Positions 1,166 through 17,780 are shown, counted from the first letter of the stretch. The stretch is 64,000 bases of DNA from an uncultured Pseudohongiella sp. (GCA_902597095.1 CACJWK010000005.1:1-64000), one strand, 5' to 3'. Numbers and translations: made by a program. Notes: generated from the sequence alone by a model not told the origin.

Positions 1166-3193
1166 TCACGTTGCGGTAAAATTATTCGGTGCAGTTACCA
1201 GCTCATTGCCCTTTCGCTGGAGATAAACGATGCCAATGAGCAGAAGCGCACCTGCTGCATGGCAATAAGTTGGAAGAGGCGTCCACATCAGCAGAAAAGC
1301 ACTGAGCAGCAGGCTCAACGCTGCCGCTGGCGTGATCCGGGCTTCCAGATGCCACTGCAGTAGTCCGGCCATTGCGTATAAACCCATAGATGCCCAGAGA
1401 AAGACTTCCAGTCGCTCAGGCCAGCTGCCCGAGATCAGTGGTGAATAGGCGAACAGGACGGGCACCAGATAAAGGCCTTTGGCGACCTTCCAGCTGGTGA
1501 GCCCGGTCGGAATGGGTCGGGTTCCCGCGATCCCCGCTGCGGCGAACGAGGCGAGGCAGACCGGCGGCGTGACATTGCTGTCCTGAGATAACCAGAAAAT
1601 AATCAGATGGGCGCTGAGGAGCATGCCATTGAGCAATTCTGCGGGCAGCATTTCCTGACGGATAAGCTGTTTCATTTCCATCGGCATTTCCTGCAGTGCA
1701 ACTGCGGGATCTCCACCGAACAGCCCGATGGTTGCGGCAACGTTACCTGGCAGGTCACCTGACTGCAGCGCCGACAGCAGCTGAGACTGGCTGATTAAAT
1801 CAAAAATGAGTGGCGCGGAGAGTGTCGCCAGCACGATGTATGATGCGGTGACAGGCAGGCCCATGCCCAGCACCAGAGAGGCAAGCGCGACCAGTACCAG
1901 GGTAATCAGCAGTGAGCCCTGTGCCCATTCAACAATCATCAGTGAAAAGGCATTGCCGACACCTGTCGTTGTCACGACGTTGATGACAATACCGACTGCG
2001 ACCAGCAGCAGGGCCGTGGTTACCATGTTACGGACGCCATCCACTACCGCATCAAAAATGTCAGGTAGTCTCATCGGGTTCGAAGATAACCAGGAAGCTG
2101 CGATGACCGAGAGGATAGCGAATGCGGCGGATGAGGTCGGGGTTCTGCCAGCGATAAGGAACCCGATCAGGACTCCCAGTGGAATGACGAAATGCCAGCC
2201 CTGCTTGAGCACCGTGCGGACTGATTCTCCTTCCCCTTTCCCGGCAGCTGTCAGACCGAGTCGTTTCGCCTCGATGCGGACAAAGTAGGACACGGTCAGA
2301 AAGTAGAGCAGGGCTGGCAGTGCTGAGGCGGCAATTACCGTGAGGTAGGAGATTTGCGTATAACTGGCTAGTACGAAGGCACCTGCGCCCATGACGGGCG
2401 GCATGAGCGCGCCGCCGGTGGACGCCGCGGCTTCGACTCCAGCGGCGAACCGCGGAGTGAATCCTGATTTTTTCATCATCGGAATGGTGATCACACCGAT
2501 CGAGACGGTATTGGCAACCGCAGAGCCGGTTACGGATCCCATCAGCCCGGAACCCACCACCGAGACCAGGCCGGCACCACCGACGAGTCTGCGCGTCAGG
2601 CAGTTTGCAAGGCGCACAATGAAATCCCCGGCGCCAGACTTCAACAGAAAGGCGCCGAAAATGATGAACATGAATACGAAGGTAGAAGAAATATTGGCGG
2701 TGAGGCCAAACATGCCCTCACTGGTAAAGTAACTACGGTACATGACCGTTTCGAGGCTCAGTCCTGGGAATGCGAACACACCACCAATATAACGCCCCAG
2801 AAAAAGGATGTAGGATAAACTCAGCGTGATGAGGATCGGCATGAACCAGCCGGTTGTGCGTCGGGTGAATTCCATGGCGAGCGCGATCGCAATGATTGAG
2901 AAAACGTAGTCACTCAGGATGTATTCGGTCTCTCTGGCATACAGCGCATTCTCGAACAGCACGAGATATCCGGCGGAGGCGATGGTCAGCAGGGCAAGGC
3001 CCAAGTTGATCCAGTACTGCGCAGATTGCTTGCCATCGCTCAGCGCCTCATTGGCCATGAACATGCAGATTGCGCCAAATCCGCCGAAATGGATCGCCGA
3101 CAGCCAGAGCTCGGAGATGCTCGCAAACACGTTGCAGTAAATGTGGAAAAGCGCGAACAGAAAAGCTGTCCAGCGCAGCCGGGGTGAATTCAT
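1166..3193 (-). CDS. TRAP transporter permease, fused 4TM/12TM (DctQM-type)
   Basis: 675-aa polytopic membrane protein; motifs GSVTGSAVANTVSIGVITIPMMKKSGF and GALMPPVMGAGAFVLA typical of TRAP large permeases; ATGA overlap with the upstream TAXI gene. Confidence 0.92.
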   Translation of the reverse strand: MNSPRLRWTAFLFALFHIYCNVFASISELWLSAIHFGGFGAICMFMANEALSDGKQSAQYWINLGLALLTIASAGYLVLFENALYARETEYILSDYVFSIIAIALAMEFTRRTTGWFMPILITLSLSYILFLGRYIGGVFAFPGLSLETVMYRSYFTSEGMFGLTANISSTFVFMFIIFGAFLLKSGAGDFIVRLANCLTRRLVGGAGLVSVVGSGLMGSVTGSAVANTVSIGVITIPMMKKSGFTPRFAAGVEAAASTGGALMPPVMGAGAFVLASYTQISYLTVIAASALPALLYFLTVSYFVRIEAKRLGLTAAGKGEGESVRTVLKQGWHFVIPLGVLIGFLIAGRTPTSSAAFAILSVIAASWLSSNPMRLPDIFDAVVDGVRNMVTTALLLVAVGIVINVVTTTGVGNAFSLMIVEWAQGSLLITLVLVALASLVLGMGLPVTASYIVLATLSAPLIFDLISQSQLLSALQSGDLPGNVAATIGLFGGDPAVALQEMPMEMKQLIRQEMLPAELLNGMLLSAHLIIFWLSQDSNVTPPVCLASFAAAGIAGTRPIPTGLTSWKVAKGLYLVPVLFAYSPLISGSWPERLEVFLWASMGLYAMAGLLQWHLEARITPAAALSLLLSAFLLMWTPLPTYCHAAGALLLIGIVYLQRKGNELVTAPNNFTAT

Positions 3194-4260
3194 AGGGCCT
3201 CACTTGACTGATTACAGGCGCCATCCTCGGTCTCTGCGAGCAGCAGGCGCGGCGGAATGTCCAGCCCGATTTCCCGGTAATAGCGAACAGCGCCCTGATG
3301 CAGTGGGGCGCCGAGTCCGTCAATAGCAATTTCCAAACGCATGTCTCTGGTTGCCCGGTGGATTTCATGCAGAGTGCCCAGATTTTCCCAGATCACCTTG
3401 GTGATGTTGTAAACCACTTCATCGGGAATATCTACGCGGGTTACTAGGACGTTAGGAGAAGCCACGGTCCGGATTAATTCGGTTTGATTGGGATAGGTGC
3501 CCGGCGGGAATTCATACCAGTCCCAGAGCGGGTAGCGCGCGTTGATTGCATTAAGAGACTTTTGGCTCCAGTTCAGGATGGTCACGCGTTCTCCCATAAG
3601 AGCGTAAGCCTGAGTGATGGAGCTCACCGGTGCGCCCGCCGGGATATTCATACCGACAATGTTGCCGTCCTGGATGGCGCTGGTGGTTGGACCATATCCC
3701 ATATAGGCCAGCGTGAATTTTTCCTGATAATCGATACCCAGTGAATCTAGAATAAACCGGCCGGTCTGCTCGGCGCCGGAGTTGCGGGCCCCCAGCACAT
3801 AACGTTCTCCGCTGAGCAGATTCAGGTCCTGCATGGTGCCTGTTGCACTCAACTCCGACAGCAGGACGAAGTGCTCAACGTTTTTCCACAGCGCACTGAC
3901 ACTGCGCAGATGCGTCTGTGGTGAACTGACTGGACCCTCGCCATCCCAGGACCAGGCGCCGAACGGGCCCTGCAGGATAGCGAATTGCGCCTGGTTATCC
4001 CGGAGCAGCTTGATGTTTTCCAGGGACCCGGCTGAGCTGATGGCGGTCATAGAAATGCCGTCGCTCTGGGCCAGCTGCGCATGCGCAATAGTCGCAATAG
4101 CGACACCAACCGGATAGAAAGTTCCCCCGGTCGTTGCGGTCGTGAGTACGTAGGGTCTGGCCCGACTCAGCTCATCACTGCAGGCGCCAAGCAGCAGCGA
4201 GGCCAGCATGACGACACAGATCAGCCGTGAGTTTTTGCCGTATTTCAAGGTAGGAGACAC
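3190..4260 (-). CDS. TAXI-family TRAP transporter solute-binding lipoprotein
   Basis: Lipobox-like LLLGAC; TTATTGGTFYPVGVAIA and SAGSLENIKLLRDNQAQFAILQ typical of TAXI subunits; directly upstream of the fused TRAP permease. Confidence 0.92.
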   Translation of the reverse strand: MSPTLKYGKNSRLICVVMLASLLLGACSDELSRARPYVLTTATTGGTFYPVGVAIATIAHAQLAQSDGISMTAISSAGSLENIKLLRDNQAQFAILQGPFGAWSWDGEGPVSSPQTHLRSVSALWKNVEHFVLLSELSATGTMQDLNLLSGERYVLGARNSGAEQTGRFILDSLGIDYQEKFTLAYMGYGPTTSAIQDGNIVGMNIPAGAPVSSITQAYALMGERVTILNWSQKSLNAINARYPLWDWYEFPPGTYPNQTELIRTVASPNVLVTRVDIPDEVVYNITKVIWENLGTLHEIHRATRDMRLEIAIDGLGAPLHQGAVRYYREIGLDIPPRLLLAETEDGACNQSSEAL

Positions 4261-4272
4261 GAGACTGTCAGT

Positions 4273-4518
4273 TCAATGCTTCTTTCGGTCGGCGCCGAGC
4301 GTATCCCGGACCGTGCCGGACAGAGGTTTTTCAGTTTCCAGCGCGTCGATCAGCTTAAAGGTGCCGCCGAGCACGGCTACACCCACTGTCACACCGACGG
4401 TCAGGGCAATGCGGAAGAACATGTGGATATAGACGCCGGAGAAGTAATAGCCGATTTCAGCGATTACGTTGATAAGTACCAGAGAGACGCCAAACGCTGT
4501 CCAGACGATTTTCTTCAT
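4273..4518 (-). CDS. Small two-TM membrane protein, hypothetical
   Basis: 81-aa ORF with two hydrophobic segments, starting ATG and directly upstream of the TAXI gene. Confidence 0.6.
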   Translation of the reverse strand: MKKIVWTAFGVSLVLINVIAEIGYYFSGVYIHMFFRIALTVGVTVGVAVLGGTFKLIDALETEKPLSGTVRDTLGADRKKH

Positions 4519-4557
4519 GAGGTGCTCAGTAGGATCCAGTTGTTACTGGCTTTTTAT

Positions 4558-6258
4558 TCATTGTGAGAGTAACAATAAACCCTGAATCTGACTAGCATCG
4601 AAGTGGGTGAACACGATGATGTCGTCCCGCTCGTCATCATTGAGCCGTGCCGCGATCAGGTCACCATCGACGACCTTTTGTGAAAGCGCGATCTCATCCG
4701 TCGCCACGCGGTTGTCAATCAGGTCGCGATAGGGATTTCCACTCCTGGAAGCGCTGTTGATAATGTCTCTGATGTCTATTTCATAGTTGTCGCGGTTCCG
4801 AGAGTAATCCAGCGCTCCGAGGAAACTGTCTTCCCGGGCTGGCTCAATGCTGTTCAGTAGGATTCTGATCTGGTCATTCATCAGTACCAATAAGTCGTTG
4901 TCTTCGTCCGGGCTGTCGAGCCGGGCTGAGGCGGTGCGCGTTACGCCATCGGCCTGCAGTGTTCCCACCTCATTATTTAGCGTTTGATAGGCACTCGCCA
5001 GACGCAGCACTGAGGGGAATTTGAGGTCAACTGTCACCTTTCTGGCTGGGCGTCTCTCAAACCGTTCGCCATTGTTGGGATAGATAAACGCTTCAATGGC
5101 GATGGATCCGGACAGAGCGAGCCAGACAAAGATGTCGCCCACTGAAATCGATTCAACCCGCCAAAGCCACAGATCTTTCAGCCCATCGCCGTTCTCGTCA
5201 TACAGAAACGTACTCAGTACGTTGCCGCCGGAACGGAGAATCTGGTGCGCCTGAGCGGTATTCACGCCGTCTGCCTGACCGATGAATACCGACACTTTTC
5301 CTCCTTCTCTGAGAAGCAGGTCATCAATGCCATCTCCATCGATATCTTCCAGAATTTCTTCGTGAGTGAGAGCAAGTACGCCGGTCAGGTTGGAGAAATC
5401 AAGATTGTCGATATCAAATTCTCCGAGATTTCCTTCTATAGCAGCGATATCCAGAAGAAAGTCGGGAGTCAGGGGGAAATAACGGCCCGGAGTGCGGCCG
5501 GCGAGAAACACCTCCAGTTTTTCTTCCGTCCGGACAACTAGATCTTCCCGGCCGTCTGCATTGACGTCCCTGAGAGTTAAATTGGGTATGCGTACCGCCT
5601 GTCCGGCAGAGCGATTGAAGCGGTTGATATTGAGCTGCGTGCGAAGACGGGTTTCGGAGAGAATGCTGAGAGGGCCCTCGAAATTCCCCCCGCCCTCATT
5701 GATGAGCAGGTGAATTTCGCCGGCGCCCGGAATCACCAGGTCGGTCATGCCGTCGGCGTTGATGTCTCTTGAGAAGTGCATTCGATTGATCCCCCGACTG
5801 ATGAAGCCGGGGAGTTCGGAAGCAATAGTCTGGGGTGGCAGAATGCTCTCATCATTGATGGGAAAGCGCACAGCCCGCTTTCCGTCCAGCAAGGCGATCA
5901 CGCTGACCTGATTTTCAGTGCCGAAACCTCTGTTGAGGTCCCAGCCGACGGCCCGCGATTCAAAAATGATCTCCTTAAAACCCGATTCAAAGTCGAACCC
6001 GCTTTCACGCTGGAAATATACCCTGAGACGGCTGTCGATCAGAGTCACCAGATCGTTAAGGTTGTCACCATTGAGGTCGACAATCACGAGCGATTCGGCG
6101 CTTGCCGGCAGGGCGAATGCCTGCTGAGTGAAACTGAGCACTTCGGCGCTAAGGATTTCACTGTGACTGAATATCAGACAGCAGGCAACGACAAACCTTT
6201 TGACCGCAGAGAAGCGAGCTTCATGGGTTTCAGAGCAGTGATTCATCCCTATCATCAT
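4558..6258 (-). CDS. FG-GAP/VCBS repeat secreted protein
   Basis: 566 aa; repeated Ca-binding-like DxNxDxxxD motifs (DLNGDNLNDLV, DINADGMTDLV, DVNADGREDLV, DIDGDGIDDLL, DENGDGLKDLW); N-terminal hydrophobic segment. Confidence 0.85.
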   Translation of the reverse strand: MMIGMNHCSETHEARFSAVKRFVVACCLIFSHSEILSAEVLSFTQQAFALPASAESLVIVDLNGDNLNDLVTLIDSRLRVYFQRESGFDFESGFKEIIFESRAVGWDLNRGFGTENQVSVIALLDGKRAVRFPINDESILPPQTIASELPGFISRGINRMHFSRDINADGMTDLVIPGAGEIHLLINEGGGNFEGPLSILSETRLRTQLNINRFNRSAGQAVRIPNLTLRDVNADGREDLVVRTEEKLEVFLAGRTPGRYFPLTPDFLLDIAAIEGNLGEFDIDNLDFSNLTGVLALTHEEILEDIDGDGIDDLLLREGGKVSVFIGQADGVNTAQAHQILRSGGNVLSTFLYDENGDGLKDLWLWRVESISVGDIFVWLALSGSIAIEAFIYPNNGERFERRPARKVTVDLKFPSVLRLASAYQTLNNEVGTLQADGVTRTASARLDSPDEDNDLLVLMNDQIRILLNSIEPAREDSFLGALDYSRNRDNYEIDIRDIINSASRSGNPYRDLIDNRVATDEIALSQKVVDGDLIAARLNDDERDDIIVFTHFDASQIQGLLLLSQ

Positions 6259-7842
6259 TCAGGGGCGCGCCACCAGAAGCGTGGTTGTCCGGCCATGTCG
6301 CAATATCAGGTCAGGTCGCTCATCTGCGTTGAGCGACAATACTTCGAATTCGAATACGGTTCGCGGAGCGACGTACTCCCAGAAAGCGTCATCCGAAATG
6401 ATCAGATCAGTGTCGATTGCTTTGGCTGCCAGGGTGCCATTTTCCGTGATGTAAAGTGCATCGTTACGACCGTCTCCGTCTACGTCATATTTCAGCGACA
6501 TCTGCTCTGACAGTCCCCGAACATTATCAGCCGAAAAAGCCTCAACCAGGCTGGAGCTAGGCCGTCGATCGAAGACCTGGCCGGGTTCGCTTTCCTGTGA
6601 GCCAAACAGCAGTTGGGTGCGGTTGATACTCGCGCTGCGAATCGCATCGACGACCGGGATTGTGTAAAAACTGGCGCTCAGAAAGGTTTCTCCCTGTGCT
6701 TGGGTGATGACATCAAGATTCAAGTCGTAACCAGAGAAGCGCATGACCTGATTGGCCTGAGTGAAATCAAAACTGCCTGACTGATTGAGGAACAGGCTCG
6801 CGGTCCACTCATTGCCATCGCCTGACAGGCGCAGGATATCTGCCAGACCGTCGCTGTTCATATCGCTCAGCTGCAACTCGCCGCTTGAATCCAGATCGCT
6901 CTGCCAGTCAGCTTGCTCTCTGAATCCGGAAGTCTGTTGGAAATGAATGTTCATTTGCCCCAGACCATCTGCGCCGGCATTGATATAGGCAATGTCCAGC
7001 AACTGATCGCTGTTCAGATGCGCCAGGGTGGGTGTGGGCATCCACTGCTCGCTTCTGAGCAGAGGTCTGTCAGAACGCTGCTGGTCAGCCCACTGTTCGA
7101 CAAAACCTTCGAAAGGGGAGGGCAGATCAACTGTCACTTCGATCACCACCCCTCGCTTAGGATTAATTTCCAGTCTGCCATCTACGTCAGTTGCCCTGCC
7201 GGCCCGCTGTATCGGCGTAATGTCGTGATTGAGGGTTGAAAAGCGGGCATTCAGCGTAAAGCTTTCATCTTGATTGCCCAGGAACAGACCGTACTGGTCA
7301 TTTCCGGCCATCAGAAGATCTATGAGTCCGTCTCCGTTGATGTCAGTGGGGATGTTGCTGAAATAGACTCGCTGCTTATCGGGAACGGTTGCGATAAGAT
7401 CCCATGCGCTCAGCAGTTTAAGGTTTCCGGCATATCCCTCGACGTCGGCAGAAAGACTGAAAACACCGCTGTCTGCGAACAGCACCAGTTCTTTGCCGGG
7501 TTCTTCCCGCAAGTCCGCAAAACCCACGGCGATTATTTCGGTCTTTATTTCAATGCGGCTGGGATTGGCATTAAACCCGCCATCCTCCTCTTGATAATGG
7601 ATGTGCAGTTCGCGACCGAATGCCGGATCGAAAGCTGAGTACACGATGTCTTTGGCGCCGTCGCCATTCAGATCCTCAAGTATCAGAGGGTCCCAGTTGT
7701 TTTCCCGGATCAGTTCGAAAGCGGTGTAGTTGGATTGAGCATTCGCAGCGGCGCTTCCCAAGAGCCACAGAAGTAGGGTGAGAGGCGGGAGGTTTCGTCG
7801 CAATGTAGCGAAAGTGTCTTGCTTGACTTGCTTATGGTTCAT
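6259..7842 (-). CDS. FG-GAP/VCBS repeat secreted protein (paralogue of the neighbour)
   Basis: ORF 6259..7881; start at MNHKQVKQ (7842) avoids overlap with the PDZ gene; repeats DLNGDGAKDIV, DINGDGLIDLL, DMNSDGLADIL, DVDGDGRNDAL. Confidence 0.85.
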   Translation of the reverse strand: MNHKQVKQDTFATLRRNLPPLTLLLWLLGSAAANAQSNYTAFELIRENNWDPLILEDLNGDGAKDIVYSAFDPAFGRELHIHYQEEDGGFNANPSRIEIKTEIIAVGFADLREEPGKELVLFADSGVFSLSADVEGYAGNLKLLSAWDLIATVPDKQRVYFSNIPTDINGDGLIDLLMAGNDQYGLFLGNQDESFTLNARFSTLNHDITPIQRAGRATDVDGRLEINPKRGVVIEVTVDLPSPFEGFVEQWADQQRSDRPLLRSEQWMPTPTLAHLNSDQLLDIAYINAGADGLGQMNIHFQQTSGFREQADWQSDLDSSGELQLSDMNSDGLADILRLSGDGNEWTASLFLNQSGSFDFTQANQVMRFSGYDLNLDVITQAQGETFLSASFYTIPVVDAIRSASINRTQLLFGSQESEPGQVFDRRPSSSLVEAFSADNVRGLSEQMSLKYDVDGDGRNDALYITENGTLAAKAIDTDLIISDDAFWEYVAPRTVFEFEVLSLNADERPDLILRHGRTTTLLVARP

Positions 7843-7849
7843 CGAGCGC

Positions 7850-8800
7850 CTAATTCTTCTCTTCGGTGAGTTCCCCGTCATCGGTGCTCACATTAATCAG
7901 TCCCAGAATAGTGTGTGACCTTTCACTCTCGCTGCGCTGATATCGGTACAGAGAGAACACCCATAGATCAAGCAGTGTAAAACTTTCAGCATTCGGATTT
8001 ACTGACGATTCATAACGAATCAGCGGACCCAGCGACACCTTGCTGATACGTCTTCCCGGATCCCACAGATTAACGGATTCATTTTTCACTGCTCCGTTCT
8101 GCAGCAGGGTAAAGTTCACGCTCTCGCCGTGGTCGAATTCCTGGTTCAATCGGTTGATCAGATCTTGCGCTGACTTAAGATACCGGCCGTTGACTGCGAG
8201 TATCAGGCTGTCTTTTTGGATACTCGAGGTGGTCAGTGGGCTGCCGGGGAACAACTCAATGACGCGCGCGGCGGGAAGAACGCCCTGATCGGCAACCCTG
8301 ACAAGCTCAGTCCGATAGCCTGCCCGGGTGGCGAGCGGGTCGGCTCGGTAGAGTTCACGCGGTCCGGGGATCTCTGCAGCGGGGAAAGCCTCGACGGTAG
8401 TTTCGTAGACGAGAGTGTCCCGACGAATCTGGAACAGGTACTGGTTACTTGCCGATGGCAGGCTCTGGAGCGCCTGAAGGCTGTCCGGATGATCAAGGCG
8501 TGTCTCGTCGATTTGCAGAATAATGTCTCCAACCTCAATTCCGGCTTCGGCAGCAGGTGAATTGGCTGCAATTGCCCGCACCCTGACTCCTGGCAGGGAC
8601 TGAATGTTGAAAAGGGAATCACTCTCATTCGGGGTCACATTAAGCCCAAAGTCAACTGTCCCGGTGCTTGTTGAGCGCATAAGCTCAACCTCTTCTGGCG
8701 AAAGTGTGATAGCTGGCACTAGAATTTTCGGTTCAAAGCTGACGCAGGCGGTCAGAGTTAGCGTCAGCCAGAGAGCGCAGCATCGGAGAGTATTTTTCAT
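7850..8800 (-). CDS. PDZ-domain lipoprotein
   Basis: Signal/lipobox LTLTLTAC; PDZ signatures GVRVRAIAANSPAAEAGIEVGDIILQID and AARVIELFPGSPLTTSSIQKDSLILAVNGRYL. Confidence 0.85.
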   Translation of the reverse strand: MKNTLRCCALWLTLTLTACVSFEPKILVPAITLSPEEVELMRSTSTGTVDFGLNVTPNESDSLFNIQSLPGVRVRAIAANSPAAEAGIEVGDIILQIDETRLDHPDSLQALQSLPSASNQYLFQIRRDTLVYETTVEAFPAAEIPGPRELYRADPLATRAGYRTELVRVADQGVLPAARVIELFPGSPLTTSSIQKDSLILAVNGRYLKSAQDLINRLNQEFDHGESVNFTLLQNGAVKNESVNLWDPGRRISKVSLGPLIRYESSVNPNAESFTLLDLWVFSLYRYQRSESERSHTILGLINVSTDDGELTEEKN

Positions 8801-8803
8801 AGT

Positions 8804-9667
8804 TCAAAGTTTACGTGTTTGCACGACAATCAGGGATGCAGCGACCAGAACGACTAAGGTGGGGATGGGCACCCAGTAATTGAGCTGAATGACTCTATCA
8901 TCAATCAGAACATCAGAATAACCGCGCACCAGCCTGCTCACATCCTGCAGATAGGATTGATCGATCAGCGCGGGTTGAAAGCTTGCATAAAGATAATAAG
9001 CATAATCACCCAGCATGCCCTTGAAAACATCTATGGTGAGCGAGATGCCGAGCGCTGAAACTACCGCCTGAGTTGCCGTATGAGCGATGACAGAAAGCAG
9101 CAGCCCGAGGGCTATTGCAGACGGTAACGGAGCCAGTGCCAACCGGAGGCCCAAGGCAATTTCGTCGCGAATTTCGGCTTCGCTGATTAGCTCAAAACCG
9201 TCTTCTACAACAGGGCCGAACTCCCACAGCAGCCCACTCAGCAAATAGCTGGAGACGATCAGAATCCCGACTGCCACGAGTGCCAGAGCATGGAGCTGTA
9301 ACAATTTCGACATCACAATCAAGCGGCGGCTGCTGCAGCGGATTATCTGATGCCGCAGCGCGCCGCTTTCCAGTTCGGCGCTGAAGCTGTGTGCCGCTTG
9401 TGCAACCAGCAGCAGGAAAAGCAGCGTGATACCGGTATCAAGACCATCAACAAAATGTCCCCAGGCGTTGCTGGCGATGGCATCGTCAAAACTGTTCGAA
9501 TTCATCAGGCTGTCCCGGGCGGCAGTTCCTGTATCTGAGATTTTTGACGCAATAAACTGAAAAGCAGCCGCCGCGGAAGGCAGCAAGATCAACAGTCGGG
9601 CGCCAAGTGCATAGCGTGCCACATAGAACTCACTGCGCAGGGCCTGAATCAGGCTGGACAGGCTCAT
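8804..9667 (-). CDS. ABC-2-type transporter permease
   Basis: 287 aa with multiple TM segments; ATG overlaps the stop of the adjacent ATPase gene. Confidence 0.8.
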   Translation of the reverse strand: MSLSSLIQALRSEFYVARYALGARLLILLPSAAAAFQFIASKISDTGTAARDSLMNSNSFDDAIASNAWGHFVDGLDTGITLLFLLLVAQAAHSFSAELESGALRHQIIRCSSRRLIVMSKLLQLHALALVAVGILIVSSYLLSGLLWEFGPVVEDGFELISEAEIRDEIALGLRLALAPLPSAIALGLLLSVIAHTATQAVVSALGISLTIDVFKGMLGDYAYYLYASFQPALIDQSYLQDVSRLVRGYSDVLIDDRVIQLNYWVPIPTLVVLVAASLIVVQTRKL

Positions 9668-10584
9668 GTGTCTGATTCCTGTGTCAGTCGTCTGAAGAGA
9701 GAGCCGAGTGATGCGCGCTCGGTGGCCAGTTCATAGACGGGGATCTGGTGTTGCGCCAGGTGACTGTTGATTGCTGCGGCAGTCATGATGTCTGAGGACA
9801 CCCAGATTTCTTCATCCGTAGCCCCCGGTTGGCAACTGATGTCTGAAATCGTCTGCAGCGCTGCGACGGCGCCAACAGGATCAGTGGTGCGAAGCCTGAC
9901 CTTGCTGGTTTCTGAGCGCAGCAGCGCAGATTTTTCTCCGCTTCGAATGATCTTCCCCTCGTGAAGGATTGCCAGGTGACTGCAAATATTTTCCAGATAG
10001 GGGAGCTGATGGCTGGACAGCAGGAAACTGGTGCCGCGTTCTTGATTGAGCGACTTGATCAGCAGCAGGACTTCGTCTACCCCTCCGGCATCGAGTCCGT
10101 TGAAAGGCTCGTCCAGAATGACCAGATCAGGCTCTGAAATCAGCGCATGCGCGATCGAGGCCCGGCGCTTATTGCCCAGCGACAAGGTCTTAATCGGGAA
10201 ATGGCTGAACTGGCACAGCCCAAGCAGCTTCTCGAGTTCTTCCGGATGCCGCTTCGCGTGCCTGCTGAGTATGCGGGCGTGCTGGAGACACTGCCTGACG
10301 GTCAGGTTAGGGTTAAGACTCGGTGAATCGAATACCGCCGTCACTCTGCCCTGGGCCGTGCACAGATCAGTCGGCTTCAGTCCCAGCACCGAGACTTCAC
10401 CCTGGTCATACCGCTGCAGACCGAGCATGCATTCCAGCGTGGTTGTCTTGCCGGAACCGTTCAGACCCACCAGGCCCTGAATGCCCCCCGGGGCAAGCGT
10501 CAGATCTACGCCTGTAAGCACATCCAGATTGCCATAGGCTTTCCGGAGCCCCGAAATGAGAAGTGCAGGGGTCTGAGTGCTCAT
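9664..10584 (-). CDS. ABC transporter ATP-binding protein
   Basis: Walker A GLNGSGKTT, signature LSLGNKRRASIAHAL, Walker B LVILDEPFNGLD. Confidence 0.95.
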   Translation of the reverse strand: MSTQTPALLISGLRKAYGNLDVLTGVDLTLAPGGIQGLVGLNGSGKTTTLECMLGLQRYDQGEVSVLGLKPTDLCTAQGRVTAVFDSPSLNPNLTVRQCLQHARILSRHAKRHPEELEKLLGLCQFSHFPIKTLSLGNKRRASIAHALISEPDLVILDEPFNGLDAGGVDEVLLLIKSLNQERGTSFLLSSHQLPYLENICSHLAILHEGKIIRSGEKSALLRSETSKVRLRTTDPVGAVAALQTISDISCQPGATDEEIWVSSDIMTAAAINSHLAQHQIPVYELATERASLGSLFRRLTQESDT

Positions 10585-10654
10585 ACTGTTTCTCGCAAAA
10601 ATCTGGGCAAACGATTGTTTTTGCTACGACCCCTGACCTGTTTTCCGTTAAAGG

Positions 10655-13600
10655 CTAGTTGACAAACAAATCCCCGACCTGCAGCTGCTGCACTGAGCCG
10701 AATTGCTCAAGCTCATCGGCGTCGATAATCGATAAATCACCTACGATTGAAATGAGTTTAGCCCGGTCTTTGACGTGCTCTGCCTGAAATTCCAGAAGAT
10801 CAGCCAGTTCGGTTTGCTGTAGTTTCAGATAGTTGTCCCGTCGGGGGTCGCCTTCCAGTCCCTGGCGTTCCCAGGTGCGAACGGCTCCGATCACTTCGCG
10901 GAAATTGAGCTTTGAAGTGCGGTACCGGTTCAGCATTGAATTCACAGATTCCTCAAACCGTTCAGAAGAGCTGGGCATGTTGTCTATCAGGTCGATAAAG
11001 GCGGCCAGCGCATCGACCGTTTTGTCGGTTTGCGTGCCGATTGAGCCCATCATCAGATTTTCGGCATTGATCCGGCTACCAGCCGAGTAGCGCGCCGAAG
11101 CCGAGTAGGCAAGGGCCCGGGCTTCACGCAATTCCTGAAATACCACGCTGGACATACCGCTGCCGAAATAGCTGGTGTAAAGATTGGCCAGCAGACCGTC
11201 TTCCGCGTTGTAGACGCCATCGGCGAATTCTATCCTGACCTGAGCCTGAGCGGTTTGCTGGTCGACAATCAGAACTTCCGAGCTGTCGATGTCGCGGACG
11301 TTTCGAAACCGGTATTCAGGTGTGTCCTGAAGATCAGCACTGACTTCGTAGCTGCGACGAAGCGTTTCGACCAATTCTTCAAGCGGCATGGATCCAGTAT
11401 AGGCCAGCGTATGCTTGTAGTTGAGCAACTCACCGGGTGCCTCCAGCAGATCATCGAGTGCGGTGCTGAGGATTTCCTCGCTGCTCATGGCCTCCAGCAT
11501 GGGTGATTCCTCACCGAAGCGGTTATACATAAACAGTGCCTGTGCGATTGCCGGAGGCGAGCTCTTTTGATCCTGTCGGGACTTGAGCAGGATGCTTTTC
11601 AACTGTTCAAGGGTCTGCTCGTCCGCACTGGGGCTTCTGATCAGCTGCATCATCAGATCGATTGAATTTTCAAACTGGGCATCCAGTCCCGATACGGCGA
11701 AAGCGGAGCTGTTTTCTCCGGCGCCAAAGCGGAATTCCGTGCCCATGCGGTACCACTCCTTCTGTAATTCCTCGTTGCTCAGTGAGTCAGTGCCGGCAAC
11801 GTCCATCAGGGCGGCCGCCAGTCCGAGTTGCTTGTCTGCTTCTGTTCCAACATCAACAGAAAGGGAGAATGAGAACAGATCATTGAGCGGGTTCGGCGCA
11901 TAGTACAGATCAACCCCGGGCGCGAACTCAATGATGCGGTAGTCGCTGTCCATCTCCACGAACGTTGGATCAATTTCTTCGACCTGCATGGCCAGAATCT
12001 GAGAGGCAAATTCCGACTGTCTCGTCGGATCGATAGTCACCGGATCGATCTGAGGCTTTTCGACTTCCGGAACGACATGCTGGGCATCGACGCGGTAGAC
12101 CGCGACGTAGTCGTCGCCAAAGTATTTGTTGGCGACATCAACGACATCCTGCTTGGTAAGCTGTTCCATGCGGTCTATTTCAGCGATGTGATAATCCCAC
12201 TGTGCCCCTTCGATGAATGCCTGTCGCATCATTGAGACCCTTGCAGTATTGAATTCCAGGCTGGCCTTCTCGCTCTTGAGAAAGTCGTTGATGATTGCCG
12301 GGATGATCCACTCGTCAAATTCGCCTGACTTGATAATCTCGAGCTGGTCCAGCAACAGCTGTTCAACTTCTTCAAGCGTCTGATCTTGTTTAGGGACCCC
12401 GTACAGCGATTGTGAGCCAAAGTCATTGAGAAACAGAGGCGAAGAACCTGCTTGAGAAACAAGCTGCTGTTGATTGAGATTCAGGTTGATCAGGCCTGCA
12501 GTCCGGTTGTCCAGAATCATGTCAATCAGAATCAGCGCCTCCTTGTCCGGACTGCCGTTGGGGGCAGTACGAAACGCCAGCTGGACCTGTTCTTCACCCG
12601 GATACTGAACCGTGCGCCGCTCGGCGCCCTGCAAAGGCGGCTCTTGCCAGGGGCCGACTTCGGGGACTGGCTTGCGTTCCCAGTGGCCGAATTTGTCGGC
12701 GATCAGATTGATGGTTGCTTCGATATCAATGTCACCGCTGATGAATATGCCCATATTGTTCGGCACATAGTTGGTGTCAAAGTAATTCTGGATATAAACC
12801 AGAGAAGGGTTTTTCAGGTGCTCGACAGTTCCGATTGTCGGTTGCTGACCATAAGGGTGCACTTTGTAAAGCAGTTCATCTACGGCAGTCCCGATTATCC
12901 GGCCGCCATTGTCGAGTGTCCTGTTTTTCTCCTCGTAAACGGTTTCCAATTCTGTATGAAACAGTCGAAAGACGGGATCAACAAATCTGTCTGATTCGAT
13001 TTCGGCCCATTGCGCCAGCCGGTTGGCAGGTAGCCCTACTTTATATACGGTTTCTTCATACCAGGTGTGGGCGTTCAGTCCACTGCCCCCCATGCCGTTG
13101 TATAGTTTGTCAATTTCATTGGGAACCGCATATTCAGCAGCCAGTTGTGCCTCGGTATTAATTTCGGCGTAAATCTCTGCGCGCCTGGCCGGATCAACTT
13201 CCTGAAAGTGTGCCTCATACAGTTCGACAATCCGGTCGAGATGGGGCTTTTCGGCCTCGTAGTCGAGCGTTCCCAGATTCCGATTGCCCTTGAACAGAAG
13301 ATGCTCTAGGTAGTGCGCGAGCCCTGTGCCGTCGGCAGGATCATGCTTGCTGCCGGCGCGTATAGCGATCTCCGCATAAAAGCGCGGCTCTTCATGGTTT
13401 TCGGTCAGGAAAACCTGCAGTCCGTTATCCAGCTCGAAAATATGGGCATCGAGAGGATCTTCCGGGTTGGGGTCGTTTATGCGCCGGTAGCCTGCCGCAG
13501 TGTTTTCTGTCGACGGGTCGGCCGCTCCAGAGGTGTCGGTTGAGGTTTCTCCGCATCCCCCCAGTGCGAGCAGCAGGGAGGCAGTCAGCCACCAGGTGAA

Positions 13601-13657
13601 TTTGACTGTTGACTCAGATTTGTGGGCGGTCGGCATGGGGTCTCCTGATAAATTCAA
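10655..13657 (-). CDS. M16-family (pitrilysin/insulinase-like) metallopeptidase
   Basis: 1000 aa; inverted zinc motif HYLEH in GLAHYLEHLLFKGN, with downstream YEEKNRTLDN region; two-domain M16 architecture; lipoprotein-like N-terminus LALGGCG. Confidence 0.93.
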   Translation of the reverse strand: MNLSGDPMPTAHKSESTVKFTWWLTASLLLALGGCGETSTDTSGAADPSTENTAAGYRRINDPNPEDPLDAHIFELDNGLQVFLTENHEEPRFYAEIAIRAGSKHDPADGTGLAHYLEHLLFKGNRNLGTLDYEAEKPHLDRIVELYEAHFQEVDPARRAEIYAEINTEAQLAAEYAVPNEIDKLYNGMGGSGLNAHTWYEETVYKVGLPANRLAQWAEIESDRFVDPVFRLFHTELETVYEEKNRTLDNGGRIIGTAVDELLYKVHPYGQQPTIGTVEHLKNPSLVYIQNYFDTNYVPNNMGIFISGDIDIEATINLIADKFGHWERKPVPEVGPWQEPPLQGAERRTVQYPGEEQVQLAFRTAPNGSPDKEALILIDMILDNRTAGLINLNLNQQQLVSQAGSSPLFLNDFGSQSLYGVPKQDQTLEEVEQLLLDQLEIIKSGEFDEWIIPAIINDFLKSEKASLEFNTARVSMMRQAFIEGAQWDYHIAEIDRMEQLTKQDVVDVANKYFGDDYVAVYRVDAQHVVPEVEKPQIDPVTIDPTRQSEFASQILAMQVEEIDPTFVEMDSDYRIIEFAPGVDLYYAPNPLNDLFSFSLSVDVGTEADKQLGLAAALMDVAGTDSLSNEELQKEWYRMGTEFRFGAGENSSAFAVSGLDAQFENSIDLMMQLIRSPSADEQTLEQLKSILLKSRQDQKSSPPAIAQALFMYNRFGEESPMLEAMSSEEILSTALDDLLEAPGELLNYKHTLAYTGSMPLEELVETLRRSYEVSADLQDTPEYRFRNVRDIDSSEVLIVDQQTAQAQVRIEFADGVYNAEDGLLANLYTSYFGSGMSSVVFQELREARALAYSASARYSAGSRINAENLMMGSIGTQTDKTVDALAAFIDLIDNMPSSSERFEESVNSMLNRYRTSKLNFREVIGAVRTWERQGLEGDPRRDNYLKLQQTELADLLEFQAEHVKDRAKLISIVGDLSIIDADELEQFGSVQQLQVGDLFVN

Positions 13658-13674
13658 AGGGTCAGTCGCTGGTT

Positions 13675-14352
13675 TTACAGCTCTGCTTCATTCATTGATT
13701 GTGTGGTCATCAGTCCGGTGATTATCTGACCCAGAAATTTTTCGGCTTCCTGCATCTGTGAATCACTCAACTTCTGACTCAATTCCATTCTGGCATCCAT
13801 GAGCGCCTGCATCTGTCGCTGACTTTCATCGACGGCGTCCCGGTTGGACCGGTTAACCTGCTCCTGTCCGGCGCCCATATAACGCATCAGGACCTCGAGT
13901 ACGATTTCCTGATTTGCCTCAGTCAGGCCTCCGGACACGCGCGCCAGCTGGCGGGTAAAGTTGCTGCGTAGCACACGTTCTTGAAAGCTGGCTTCATACT
14001 CATCAAAGCTCCGCAGCTCCCGATCAGTGAGCAGTTCAGCGACCTTGCCGCGCAAGTAGGCGGGCGAGGACAGTTCCTCCAGACTCACCGAAGAAATCAC
14101 GCCGGAGGTCCGGTTGCGGCTTGCTTCGTTCCTTGCGAGAAATACGGTGGTTATCACAGAACCGATTTCTGCTTTGCGCTGAGCAGTCGTATCCAGCGCG
14201 TCAAGATATTGCCCGTAACGCATCTGCGCCTGTGTTTCAGCCATCTGCCTTTGTGAATTGTCGACATATCCCGGTGGCGGGCCGCCCTGCGCCAGCGCGT
14301 TGCCGATCAGCAGGAAAGCCCCGACTGTCAGCAGCAGTTCAATTCTATTCAT
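13675..14352 (-). CDS. Hypothetical exported Gln/Glu-rich protein
   Basis: ORF 13675..14463; plausible start at MNRIELLLTVGAFLLIGNALAQ (signal peptide). Confidence 0.6.
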   Translation of the reverse strand: MNRIELLLTVGAFLLIGNALAQGGPPPGYVDNSQRQMAETQAQMRYGQYLDALDTTAQRKAEIGSVITTVFLARNEASRNRTSGVISSVSLEELSSPAYLRGKVAELLTDRELRSFDEYEASFQERVLRSNFTRQLARVSGGLTEANQEIVLEVLMRYMGAGQEQVNRSNRDAVDESQRQMQALMDARMELSQKLSDSQMQEAEKFLGQIITGLMTTQSMNEAEL

Positions 14353-14698
14353 GGTCCACTCAAGTTCGAAGTACAGGCGCTTATGGTAAGTAAAATTCAG
14401 TAAAAAACCTATGGTTTGCCCGGGCCGGCAGCGACGCGGTACAGAACCTGCCCGGAATCCCAAGCGGGCAAGCCATTGCTGCCACTGTCAACCCCGCGTG
14501 AGGATGAAGATGGACCGGGAAACGGCTATGCTACGGCCTCTGACAGAGCAATCTGATGTCAGCAACCCGCAGACGGTGACGCATAGTGCATTGAGCGCCT
14601 GGAGCCATGTCTTCAGGTTTATCCGCTGAGGATATCTCAATGCTTCGGTTTCATTGCTGCTGTGTTGCGTTTTGAATCGAATTTCAGGTGTGAATCAA

Positions 14699-16384
14699 AT
14701 GCGGAGGAAAACAGGAATGCGCAGAGAAAACCCACCGGTCGGGGTACTGATTGTGCTGACTTTCGCACTGTCCGCGATAGCTGGCGCGCAGGAGAGCCCG
14801 AATCAGGCCTGGGCGAATTACGATGAGTCCGCTGATCTGGCGCGTCTGGCCGAGCTGGACAATACACGCATGCACTACCGGTTACTCCGCTCCGGCATGC
14901 AGACCCCGGGCAGTTTATGGGCCAGTCTGAATGACGAGGTCAATAGACTGACGCCGGCGCGTTATCGGGCGCTCGAGCCGCTGGTGGTGGAATCTTCGGT
15001 TGCCAGGCTGCAGGCTTTGGTGCGTGCGGGGGACCTCAGTTACGAAGAGCTCACGCTGTTCTATTTATCGCGCATTCGCGAAATTGAGGGTGACCCCTCG
15101 AGATATCTGAATGCCGTGATCAGTCTGAACCCTGCGTCCGTCGAGAGAGCGCGGGCACTCGATCTTGCAAGGCGTGCTGCTCCTGATGTCGAACGGGATC
15201 CTATTTATGGCATGCCGATTCTGCTGAAGGACAATATCAATGCGACCGGAATGGCCACGACTGCAGGAGCAGTCGCGCTGCAAAATAATTTTGCTGACGA
15301 TGCCTTCGTTGTCGAGAAAATGCGGGAGAAGGGAGCGGTCATTCTCGGCAAAGCCAATTTGAGTGAATGGGCTTATTTTTTCTGTGATGACTGTCCATCC
15401 GGGTGGAGTGCCATGGGCGGTCAGACTCTGAATCCCTATGGCAGATTGCAGTTCAATACAGGTGGTTCCAGCGCCGGGAGTGGTGCGTCAATTGCAGCGA
15501 ATTTCGCGGCAGCAGCGGTAGGCTCAGAGACTTCCGGCTCTATTCTTTCTCCTTCAAGTGCCAACTCTCTGGTGGGCCTGAAGCCGACCACCGGCGCCCT
15601 CAGTCGCACCGGCGTGGTGCCGATATCCGGCAGTCTGGATACCACGGGGCCAATGGCTCGTTCAGTGGCCGATGTCATCATTCTGTTCAATGCCATGACC
15701 GGATATGACCAGCGGGATACCGCAATGCCGATGATGAGCGATGACCTGCGCCTGGAGCATCGCGATCAGTCGATGGCGGGCTTGCGCCTGGGAGCCCCGG
15801 GGCGCTATCTGGACGATGAACTGTTCGTAGAGGCGCTTGGGCTGCTGTCGGCTGATGAGGCCGCTATTGTCGAGATCAGCTTGCCCGAAATCGATACGCA
15901 GGGATTCGGCACGCTGTTGGGGCGAGAAATGGTGAGAGACCTGGCTCTCTATCTCAGGGATCACGCATCTCCGATGGTCATAATTGATTCTGTCGATGAT
16001 CTAAAGGCGTTCAACCTCCAGCGCCCGGATCTGAGAATGCCCTACGGTCAGGCGGAGGTTGATCGCATGGTAGAGCTGGACATCAGTCCGGCGGAGCTGG
16101 AAGCGCTCCGCGACAGTCTCCAGAGCGGCGCCCGTGCTGCCATGGAGGCTCTGTTCGCCGGTGGTGACCTCGATTTGCTGTTGAGTATGGACAATCGCAA
16201 TGCAGGATTTGCTGCGCTGGCAAATTATCCGGCGCTCACGGTACCGATGGGCTACTCGGACAGCGGCAGGCCGGTTAATCTGACGTTGATTGCACCCCCT
16301 TTTCAGGAGCAGTTGCTGGTGGATGTGGGGGGACGGTTCGAGCGTCTTGCTCAGGCTCGACGGGTGCCTGCTGCTTATCCCTGA
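14699..16384 (+). CDS. Amidase (amidase-signature family)
   Basis: ORF 14654..16384; GGSSAGSGASIAANFAAAAVGSETSGSI amidase signature, GMPILLKDNINATGM; signal-peptide-like N-terminus; exact start uncertain. Confidence 0.92.
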   Translation: MRRKTGMRRENPPVGVLIVLTFALSAIAGAQESPNQAWANYDESADLARLAELDNTRMHYRLLRSGMQTPGSLWASLNDEVNRLTPARYRALEPLVVESSVARLQALVRAGDLSYEELTLFYLSRIREIEGDPSRYLNAVISLNPASVERARALDLARRAAPDVERDPIYGMPILLKDNINATGMATTAGAVALQNNFADDAFVVEKMREKGAVILGKANLSEWAYFFCDDCPSGWSAMGGQTLNPYGRLQFNTGGSSAGSGASIAANFAAAAVGSETSGSILSPSSANSLVGLKPTTGALSRTGVVPISGSLDTTGPMARSVADVIILFNAMTGYDQRDTAMPMMSDDLRLEHRDQSMAGLRLGAPGRYLDDELFVEALGLLSADEAAIVEISLPEIDTQGFGTLLGREMVRDLALYLRDHASPMVIIDSVDDLKAFNLQRPDLRMPYGQAEVDRMVELDISPAELEALRDSLQSGARAAMEALFAGGDLDLLLSMDNRNAGFAALANYPALTVPMGYSDSGRPVNLTLIAPPFQEQLLVDVGGRFERLAQARRVPAAYP

Positions 16385-16499
16385 GTTGAGGTATGCTTAG
16401 TAGACAGAGAGCTTTATCGGCAGGCCAGCAAGCTGATGTATTGCGTACGCTGTGGCAAGCTGAACAGCTGTAACTGAATTCAAGAGTGGCGAACCGGGA

Positions 16500-17780
16500 G
16501 TGAGCATGGACAGTACCGCCAAAAACAGGAGCATTACACAGACGTGGTTCGAAATTGCGCTGTGGAAACGCATCCTGACGGCGATGGTGATTGGTGCATT
16601 ACTGGGTTCCGTGTGGGGTCCCGGGGCGGAGGCGATTGGTTGGATCGGAGATCTCTTTATCCGGCTGATACGCATGATTGTTGTGCCGCTTGTTTTTGTG
16701 ACCATTGTGTCCGGTGTGGTCTCGATGGGCGATCCTTCCAAACTGGGTTCATTAGGAGCCAAAACTCTGATTCTCTATATGCTGACCACGCTGGCAGCCA
16801 TTACCATCGGGCTTATTCTGGCGGTGTTTCTTCAGCCCGGCGTCGGTGTTGATCTGACCGGGGCGCCTGCATCAACCCTTCAGGAAACCATTCCCCTGTC
16901 GGAACGCCTGATTTCGATTGTGCCGGAAAATCCGATCGCTGCTCTGGCAGAAGGCAACATCCTTGCCATCATATTCTTCGCTATCCTGATCGGTGTAGGT
17001 CTGCTGTCGGTCGGCGAGTCTGGCAAGCCAGTGGCGGATTTCATGGACGCATCGAGCGAGGTGGTACTGCGCATTACCCACTGGATCATGGAAATCGCCC
17101 CATTTGGTGTTCTGGCTTTGATTGCGAGGGTGACTGGTGCTCAGGGGTTTGATGCGCTGCTCAATGCTGTGGTGCTGGCAATAACGGTATTGATCGCCTG
17201 TGCCGCTCACCTTGTGCTCACCCATGGGGTCATTATCATGCAGCTGATGTTAAAACTCTCGCCCATCAATTTCTTCCGCGGAGCTCGGGAAGCAATGCTG
17301 GTCGCGTTTTCCACGTCATCCAGTGCGGCGACTCTGCCGGTCTCCATGTCGGCTGCAGAGGACAATCTTGGTGTGAAGCCGGTCGTTGCCTCAACGGTGC
17401 TGCCGCTTGGCGCCACCATCAATATGGATGGCACCGCCCTGTACGTCGGTATTGTGTCAGTCTTCGCAGCGCAGGCCTTTGGCATAGACTTGACGTTGAC
17501 GGATTATCTGATCATGGCGGGAACGACGACCCTGGTTTCGGTCGGTACGGCCGCTGTGCCGAGTGCGTCTCTGTTCCTGATGGCGGCGGTAATGGAAACC
17601 ATTGGCATGACTGCGCAACAGATAGCCGTGACGGTGGGTTTCATTTTTATCATTGACCGGCCGCTGGATATGTTGCGTACTTCGATCAATATCGCGGGTG
17701 ACCTTGCGGTGTCGACAGCAGTTGCTACCTGGGAAGGGGAGTTCGATCGTGAAGTATTCGATCGGCCGCTGAATTCCTGA
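16500..17780 (+). CDS. Dicarboxylate/amino acid:cation symporter (DAACS/SLC1 family)
   Basis: 426 aa; AFSTSSSAATLPVSMSAAEDNLGV and PLGATINMDGTALY hallmarks of GltP/GltT-type transporters. Confidence 0.95.
   Translation: MSMDSTAKNRSITQTWFEIALWKRILTAMVIGALLGSVWGPGAEAIGWIGDLFIRLIRMIVVPLVFVTIVSGVVSMGDPSKLGSLGAKTLILYMLTTLAAITIGLILAVFLQPGVGVDLTGAPASTLQETIPLSERLISIVPENPIAALAEGNILAIIFFAILIGVGLLSVGESGKPVADFMDASSEVVLRITHWIMEIAPFGVLALIARVTGAQGFDALLNAVVLAITVLIACAAHLVLTHGVIIMQLMLKLSPINFFRGAREAMLVAFSTSSSAATLPVSMSAAEDNLGVKPVVASTVLPLGATINMDGTALYVGIVSVFAAQAFGIDLTLTDYLIMAGTTTLVSVGTAAVPSASLFLMAAVMETIGMTAQQIAVTVGFIFIIDRPLDMLRTSINIAGDLAVSTAVATWEGEFDREVFDRPLNS

Follow-up and report, generated by a model that had tools for sequence, protein, structure and literature searches.

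A conserved five-gene ABC-2, PDZ lipoprotein and twin FG-GAP module, a candidate trans-envelope machine typical of Pseudohongiellaceae

The window analysed here is a stretch of 64,000 nt from an uncultured Pseudohongiella sp. (GCA_902597095.1 CACJWK010000005.1:1-64000; the source genome is a 2.4-Mb draft, 77% complete). Positions 4558-10584 contain five minus-strand genes encoding an ATP-binding cassette (ABC) transporter ATPase, an ABC-2 permease, a periplasm-facing PDZ lipoprotein and two FG-GAP proteins (FG1 and FG2). The conservation of these genes as one unit, throughout one family and in two species belonging to another, points to an undescribed cell-envelope machine. All five could well belong to one such machine, with an ABC-2 motor coupled through periplasmic loops to the propeller pair and an outer-membrane PDZ lipoprotein. 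More tentatively, the module, typical of Pseudohongiellaceae and found as an intact cassette in another gammaproteobacterial family, may be a self-contained trans-envelope ABC machine whose paired propellers and outer-membrane lipoprotein deliver or assemble an envelope component. The host family appears to be Pseudohongiellaceae, and relatives with the same module appear, by name, to be Pseudohongiella-like Gammaproteobacteria.

Scanning of 84,980 species genomes with a two-peptide pattern, the only search that covered phyla outside the host phylum, yielded 109 confirmed relatives of the permease; the best 80 of these 109 are the 80 loci referred to below. The order ATPase-permease-PDZ-FG1-FG2 was observed in 80/80 loci wherever the contig reached far enough. 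Ten loci were incomplete and all ten ended at a contig edge; the ATPase was the first core gene in 79 of the 80, the remaining locus beginning at a contig edge. The shared gene order is far beyond chance. Within the genus, the permease was present in 35 of the 37 listed genomes (a count that includes the window's own genome), and 34 neighbourhoods read M16 peptidase-ATPase-permease-PDZ-FG1-FG2 as far as the contigs extended; in most of them an 81-aa membrane protein came next, followed by a TRAP-TAXI transporter.

A PDZ profile recovered full-length homologues of the PDZ protein from five of the eight host-family genera sampled and from none of the other three. Across the order, a permease profile matched the host family and two genomes of a single genus in a different family. 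When this second family was sampled, the permease was found in 1 of 61 genomes; both known carriers come from a single genus, and the permease was missing from the rest of that genus as sampled. No full-length permease match was obtained with the permease profile in 369 genomes of the class apart from the window's own, 299 genomes of the phylum gave only generic PDZ matches with the PDZ profile, and a search for FG1 at E<=1e-15 found no homologue among 184 further genomes of the class. The earlier note had proposed a neighbourhood comparison with the PDZ protein as bait, and the five-gene order was kept in every locus examined. The note would count a lack of co-occurrence of the five families beyond close relatives as refutation, and the module withstood this only to a moderate degree: several genera of one family and two genomes of a second share the same order, but the arrangement was not seen further out.

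All five open reading frames, described in the earlier note as nearly contiguous, were present in that order with a 4-bp overlap or gaps of at most 7 nt, and the Pfam assignments of all five proteins exceeded curated cut-offs. The ATPase gene (9664-10584; 306 aa, PF00005 (ABC_tran), with a C-terminal extension beyond the nucleotide-binding domain) overlaps the permease gene (8804-9667; 287 aa, PF12679 (ABC2_membrane_2), six predicted transmembrane segments) by 4 bp (ATGA), and a 3-nt gap separates the latter from the PDZ lipoprotein gene (7850-8800; Pfam PDZ_2). FG1 (6259-7842; 527 aa) and FG2 (4558-6258; 566 aa) each have a signal peptide and beta-propeller-type repeats (Pfam FG-GAP_3), and the FG2 start codon immediately follows the FG1 stop. 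The FG1 gene was present as claimed and only its start was corrected: the ATG at 7842 is most likely, in preference to 7881, giving a 7-nt gap after the PDZ stop and matching the start used in the family alignment. Across loci, the median overlap was 4 nt both for ATPase/permease and for FG1/FG2. The earlier note took the order to suggest translational coupling; the five genes do form a conserved, translationally compact module. Relative to shuffled sequence, there was no excess of consensus sigma-70 promoters and only a slight excess of terminator-like sites.

The limits of the unit were defined by the second family. Its two carrier loci lie at different chromosomal sites, one in a CTP synthase-tilS region and the other beside unrelated dehydrogenase, SPOR and TauD genes, and both have the module without the M16 peptidase, the 81-aa protein or TRAP-TAXI. 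When all open reading frames of at least 100 aa were compared between the two 16.8-kb loci, the five module genes were the only homologous pairs (59-76% identity). Because only these five genes are common to both loci, they constitute the unit and the other genes are companions; a core role for the M16 peptidase, the 81-aa protein or TRAP-TAXI was thereby ruled out. In the metagenome-assembled genome COS2_bin_1, the cassette has CTP synthase on one side and an S9 peptidase plus tilS on the other (positions 1888-16701 of the locus). Since these flanking genes are often close neighbours in Gammaproteobacteria, this position suggests insertion into a housekeeping region. The presence of the module in the second family possibly reflects either transfer or repeated loss. 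Recent transfer from Pseudohongiellaceae is disfavoured because the sequences are too divergent, the second-family permease being 37% identical to that of the window. Mere co-location, an operon of convenience in one lineage without joint function, would be consistent with the narrow taxonomic distribution; however, exactly five genes are common to two second-family loci at different sites and FG2 identity between the families falls to about 22-25%, making this explanation very improbable. Separately, permease-PDZ-FG1-FG2-TAXI-DctM also occurs, as in Pseudohongiellaceae, on a contig bearing the betaproteobacterial name Rhodoferax sp. OV413, probably from a mislabelled or contaminated bin.

The ATPase and permease belong to the ABC-2 superfamily, with PF00005 and PF12679 above their cut-offs and a permease hydropathy that fits six transmembrane segments with positive residues inside. 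From this family membership of the permease, the transporter would be expected to work in the direction of export. In the permease, conservation was high in transmembrane segments 4 and 5 and in the usual coupling region, and also in two C-terminal loops predicted to be periplasmic (residues 146-172 and 221-265), where 27 of 72 positions were at least 90% identical. The permease had no NCBIfam match, and a PDB sequence search with its profile returned nothing beyond chance hits on a kinase. Among solved structures of similar full length, those closest to the ATPase included NosF (308 aa; 7o0y, phmmer E 1.7e-33), with mycobacterial and ABCA ATPases scoring similarly. NosD acts as an accessory protein of the NosFY transporter (PMC7558416), and the module resembles NosDFY(L) in combining a small ABC-2 ATPase and permease with a periplasmic accessory protein (NosD) and a lipoprotein (NosL). 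However, it has FG-GAP propellers in place of a NosD-type protein and a double-PDZ lipoprotein in place of NosL. Membership of NosDFY was rejected: comparison of 47 module permeases with 9 NosY from nine genomes gave an hhalign probability of 2.5%, with the alignment centred on the coupling-helix region, and the NosD model TIGR04247 had only sub-cut-off matches in this genome, none inside the module. The analogy is therefore mechanistic only.

FG1 and FG2 are homologous to each other (hhalign 99.6%). FG1 has calcium-type DxDxDG motifs at residues 57, 167, 327 and 453, and homologues of both proteins mostly have four to six such motifs each. The AlphaFold2 model of FG2 was beta-rich, with a predicted local distance difference test (pLDDT) score of 82, and its Foldseek matches were propeller proteins (fungal PVL lectin, KICSTOR ITFG2, DDB1 and Tc-toxin B subunits; E ~1e-8, TM-score ~0.25). 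Pairwise FG1 and FG2 distances correlated at r=0.96 across 66 loci, the highest value of all pairs, and the distance correlations showed coordinated evolution of the two proteins, and of both with the permease.

Beta-propellers accompany ABC transporters in metal systems as well. PedA1A2BC is a lanthanide uptake unit with a beta-propeller protein and is interpreted as an importer (PMC6839425), and the zinc transporter AztABCD has an accessory periplasmic beta-propeller, AztD (PMC6689063). By the same token, the FG-GAP propellers could be periplasmic metal chaperones and the ABC unit could move a metal or cofactor; the module shares with the PedA1A2BC or pyrroloquinoline quinone (PQQ)-linked clusters an ABC ATPase and permease encoded with a propeller protein, its FG proteins have several conserved acidic DxDxDG motifs, and the PQQ/Ped ATPase model TIGR03864 was the third best of the NCBIfam models for the ATPase. 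The score of 123 bits was far under the cut-off of 302, however, and the DxDxDG motif is a usual structural feature of FG-GAP repeats. Neither the PedC permease model (TIGR03861) nor the Ped propeller models recovered the locus: module permeases gave hhalign 59% with TIGR03861 permeases over just 64 columns, and the YVTN propeller model TIGR03866 matched only other loci of this genome, all under cut-off. PedA1A2BC membership was rejected on the NCBIfam scores, on searches of genomes and on the profile comparison. The module has two FG-GAP proteins and a PDZ lipoprotein and is without a substrate-binding protein, whereas AztABCD is an importer with a solute-binding protein; no PQQ dehydrogenase was present in the adjacent genes scanned. 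Metal or cofactor handling is thus an unlikely role for the module.

Secreted proteins commonly contain FG-GAP or integrin-like repeats, and exporter genes often have the genes of their substrates beside them. The earlier note had accordingly offered the FG-GAP proteins as substrates of the ABC transporter or as surface receptors. By inspection, both proteins carry Sec-type N-terminal signal peptides, so that their passage across the inner membrane would not depend on the ABC unit, and a substrate role, in the sense of crossing that membrane, is unlikely. Neither a lipobox nor a C-terminal sorting signal was seen in either protein, leaving the receptor role unsupported. The module contains no outer-membrane channel or adaptor gene, and type I secretion parts (membrane fusion protein, outer-membrane channel) were found neither in it nor in the adjacent genes scanned. 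Together with the evolution of the pair in step with the permease, these observations make secreted substrates or surface receptors a quite doubtful explanation.

In the PDZ lipoprotein, the lipobox cysteine (Cys19) is conserved, and most homologues have V, I, L or A, rather than aspartate, at +2. An aspartate at +2 is expected to retain a lipoprotein in the inner membrane, a rule established in enterobacteria. As judged from these residues, the probable destination of the protein is therefore the inner leaflet of the outer membrane. Its AlphaFold2 model (pLDDT 83.5) contained two PDZ domains and a six-strand C-terminal beta domain (residues ~250-307), and the PDZ domains matched the tandem PDZ of DegQ and RseP in Foldseek. 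Despite this likeness to HtrA/DegQ and RseP, only PDZ-type domains exceeded the Pfam cut-off and no trypsin-like protease domain was found; instead, the lipoprotein has its own conserved N- and C-terminal parts. The C-terminal domain (residues 250-307) has the conserved motif LDLWLFSxYSY...GERSHSILGL...SDYGELxE and corresponds to no Pfam family.

One companion, an M16 zinc peptidase lipoprotein (10655-13657, minus strand; Pfam M16), is encoded directly upstream and adjoined the module in 74 of the 80 loci. Its HYLEH motif was intact in 67/67 homologues, and it could lie in the same transcript as the module. The M16 C-terminus is also conserved, mostly as L/I/V-F-V-D/E/N, and from this sequence could be a ligand of the PDZ domains. 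A peptidase with an intact zinc motif, which adjoins the module upstream in almost every Pseudohongiellaceae locus, and PDZ domains whose ligands are peptide C-termini, would both fit an exporter of peptides or small toxic compounds, for self-protection or peptide secretion, in which the M16 and PDZ lipoproteins handle peptides. The best NCBIfam relatives of the ATPase, DrrA and lantibiotic-protection ATPases, fit it too. Yet these similarities are generic and score well below cut-offs, second-family loci have no M16 gene next to the module, and simple efflux needs no pair of large propellers. Neither a precursor peptide gene nor a biosynthetic cluster was noticed beside the module, although no systematic search was made for these. 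Peptide or toxin export is thus improbable.

Downstream, the 81-aa predicted membrane protein (4273-4518, minus strand; no Pfam match) was conserved between FG2 and TRAP-TAXI in most Pseudohongiellaceae loci, with a median gap of 627 nt to TAXI across loci. Some homologous open reading frames were of about 160 aa. The TRAP-TAXI transporter (1166-4260, minus strand), consisting of DctM (1166-3193; Pfam DctM) and a TAXI receptor (3190-4260; Pfam NMT1_3), is a neighbour, not a core part, and was not beside the module in several genera.

In the machine that we favour, the ATPase and permease, two copies of each, would form an inner-membrane ABC-2 unit. The conserved periplasmic loops of the permease would transmit movements driven by ATP to the two periplasmic FG-GAP propellers, which may sit as a pseudo-symmetric pair on the homodimeric permease. 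The PDZ lipoprotein would tie the complex to the outer membrane and bind a cargo or partner protein through peptide C-termini. The likeliest task would be to deliver, mature or extract an envelope component with the energy of ATP, and in Pseudohongiellaceae the M16 peptidase lipoprotein may process the cargo. Several points weigh against this machine. The predicted structures are single chains, of the PDZ lipoprotein and FG2 only, and the propeller matches of FG2 have low TM-scores (about 0.25). The TAXI neighbour also correlated with the core genes in its distances (0.76-0.82), showing that the high correlations partly reflect shared ancestry. Further, the permease differs in type from NosY, the M16 peptidase is missing beside the second-family module, and the export direction is uncertain because PedA1A2BC is interpreted as an importer.

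The earlier note's view that the arrangement is no recognised named system agreed with our searches: Pfam, NCBIfam, PADLOC and the searchable literature yielded no named system of this composition. Anti-phage defence was rejected, PADLOC giving generic ATPase matches only, and no description of an FG-GAP/ABC/PDZ operon was found in the searchable literature, most subscription papers lying outside its reach. That the system is undescribed is supported within these databases and this literature.

An ABC-2 unit is generally taken to be a simple exporter. A few ABC systems, such as NosDFY and PedA1A2BC, use dedicated periplasmic proteins, and the module is a candidate for another trans-envelope machine of this kind. 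It is a clean candidate, because its five parts were never apart in the loci examined and the bare cassette occurs at two different chromosomal sites in two species of one genus. Carriers include Pseudohongiella sp. O18 and LSUCC0112, which appear to be cultured isolates, so the module is open to experiment. The host group consists of widespread, mostly uncultured marine Gammaproteobacteria whose envelope biology has been little studied.

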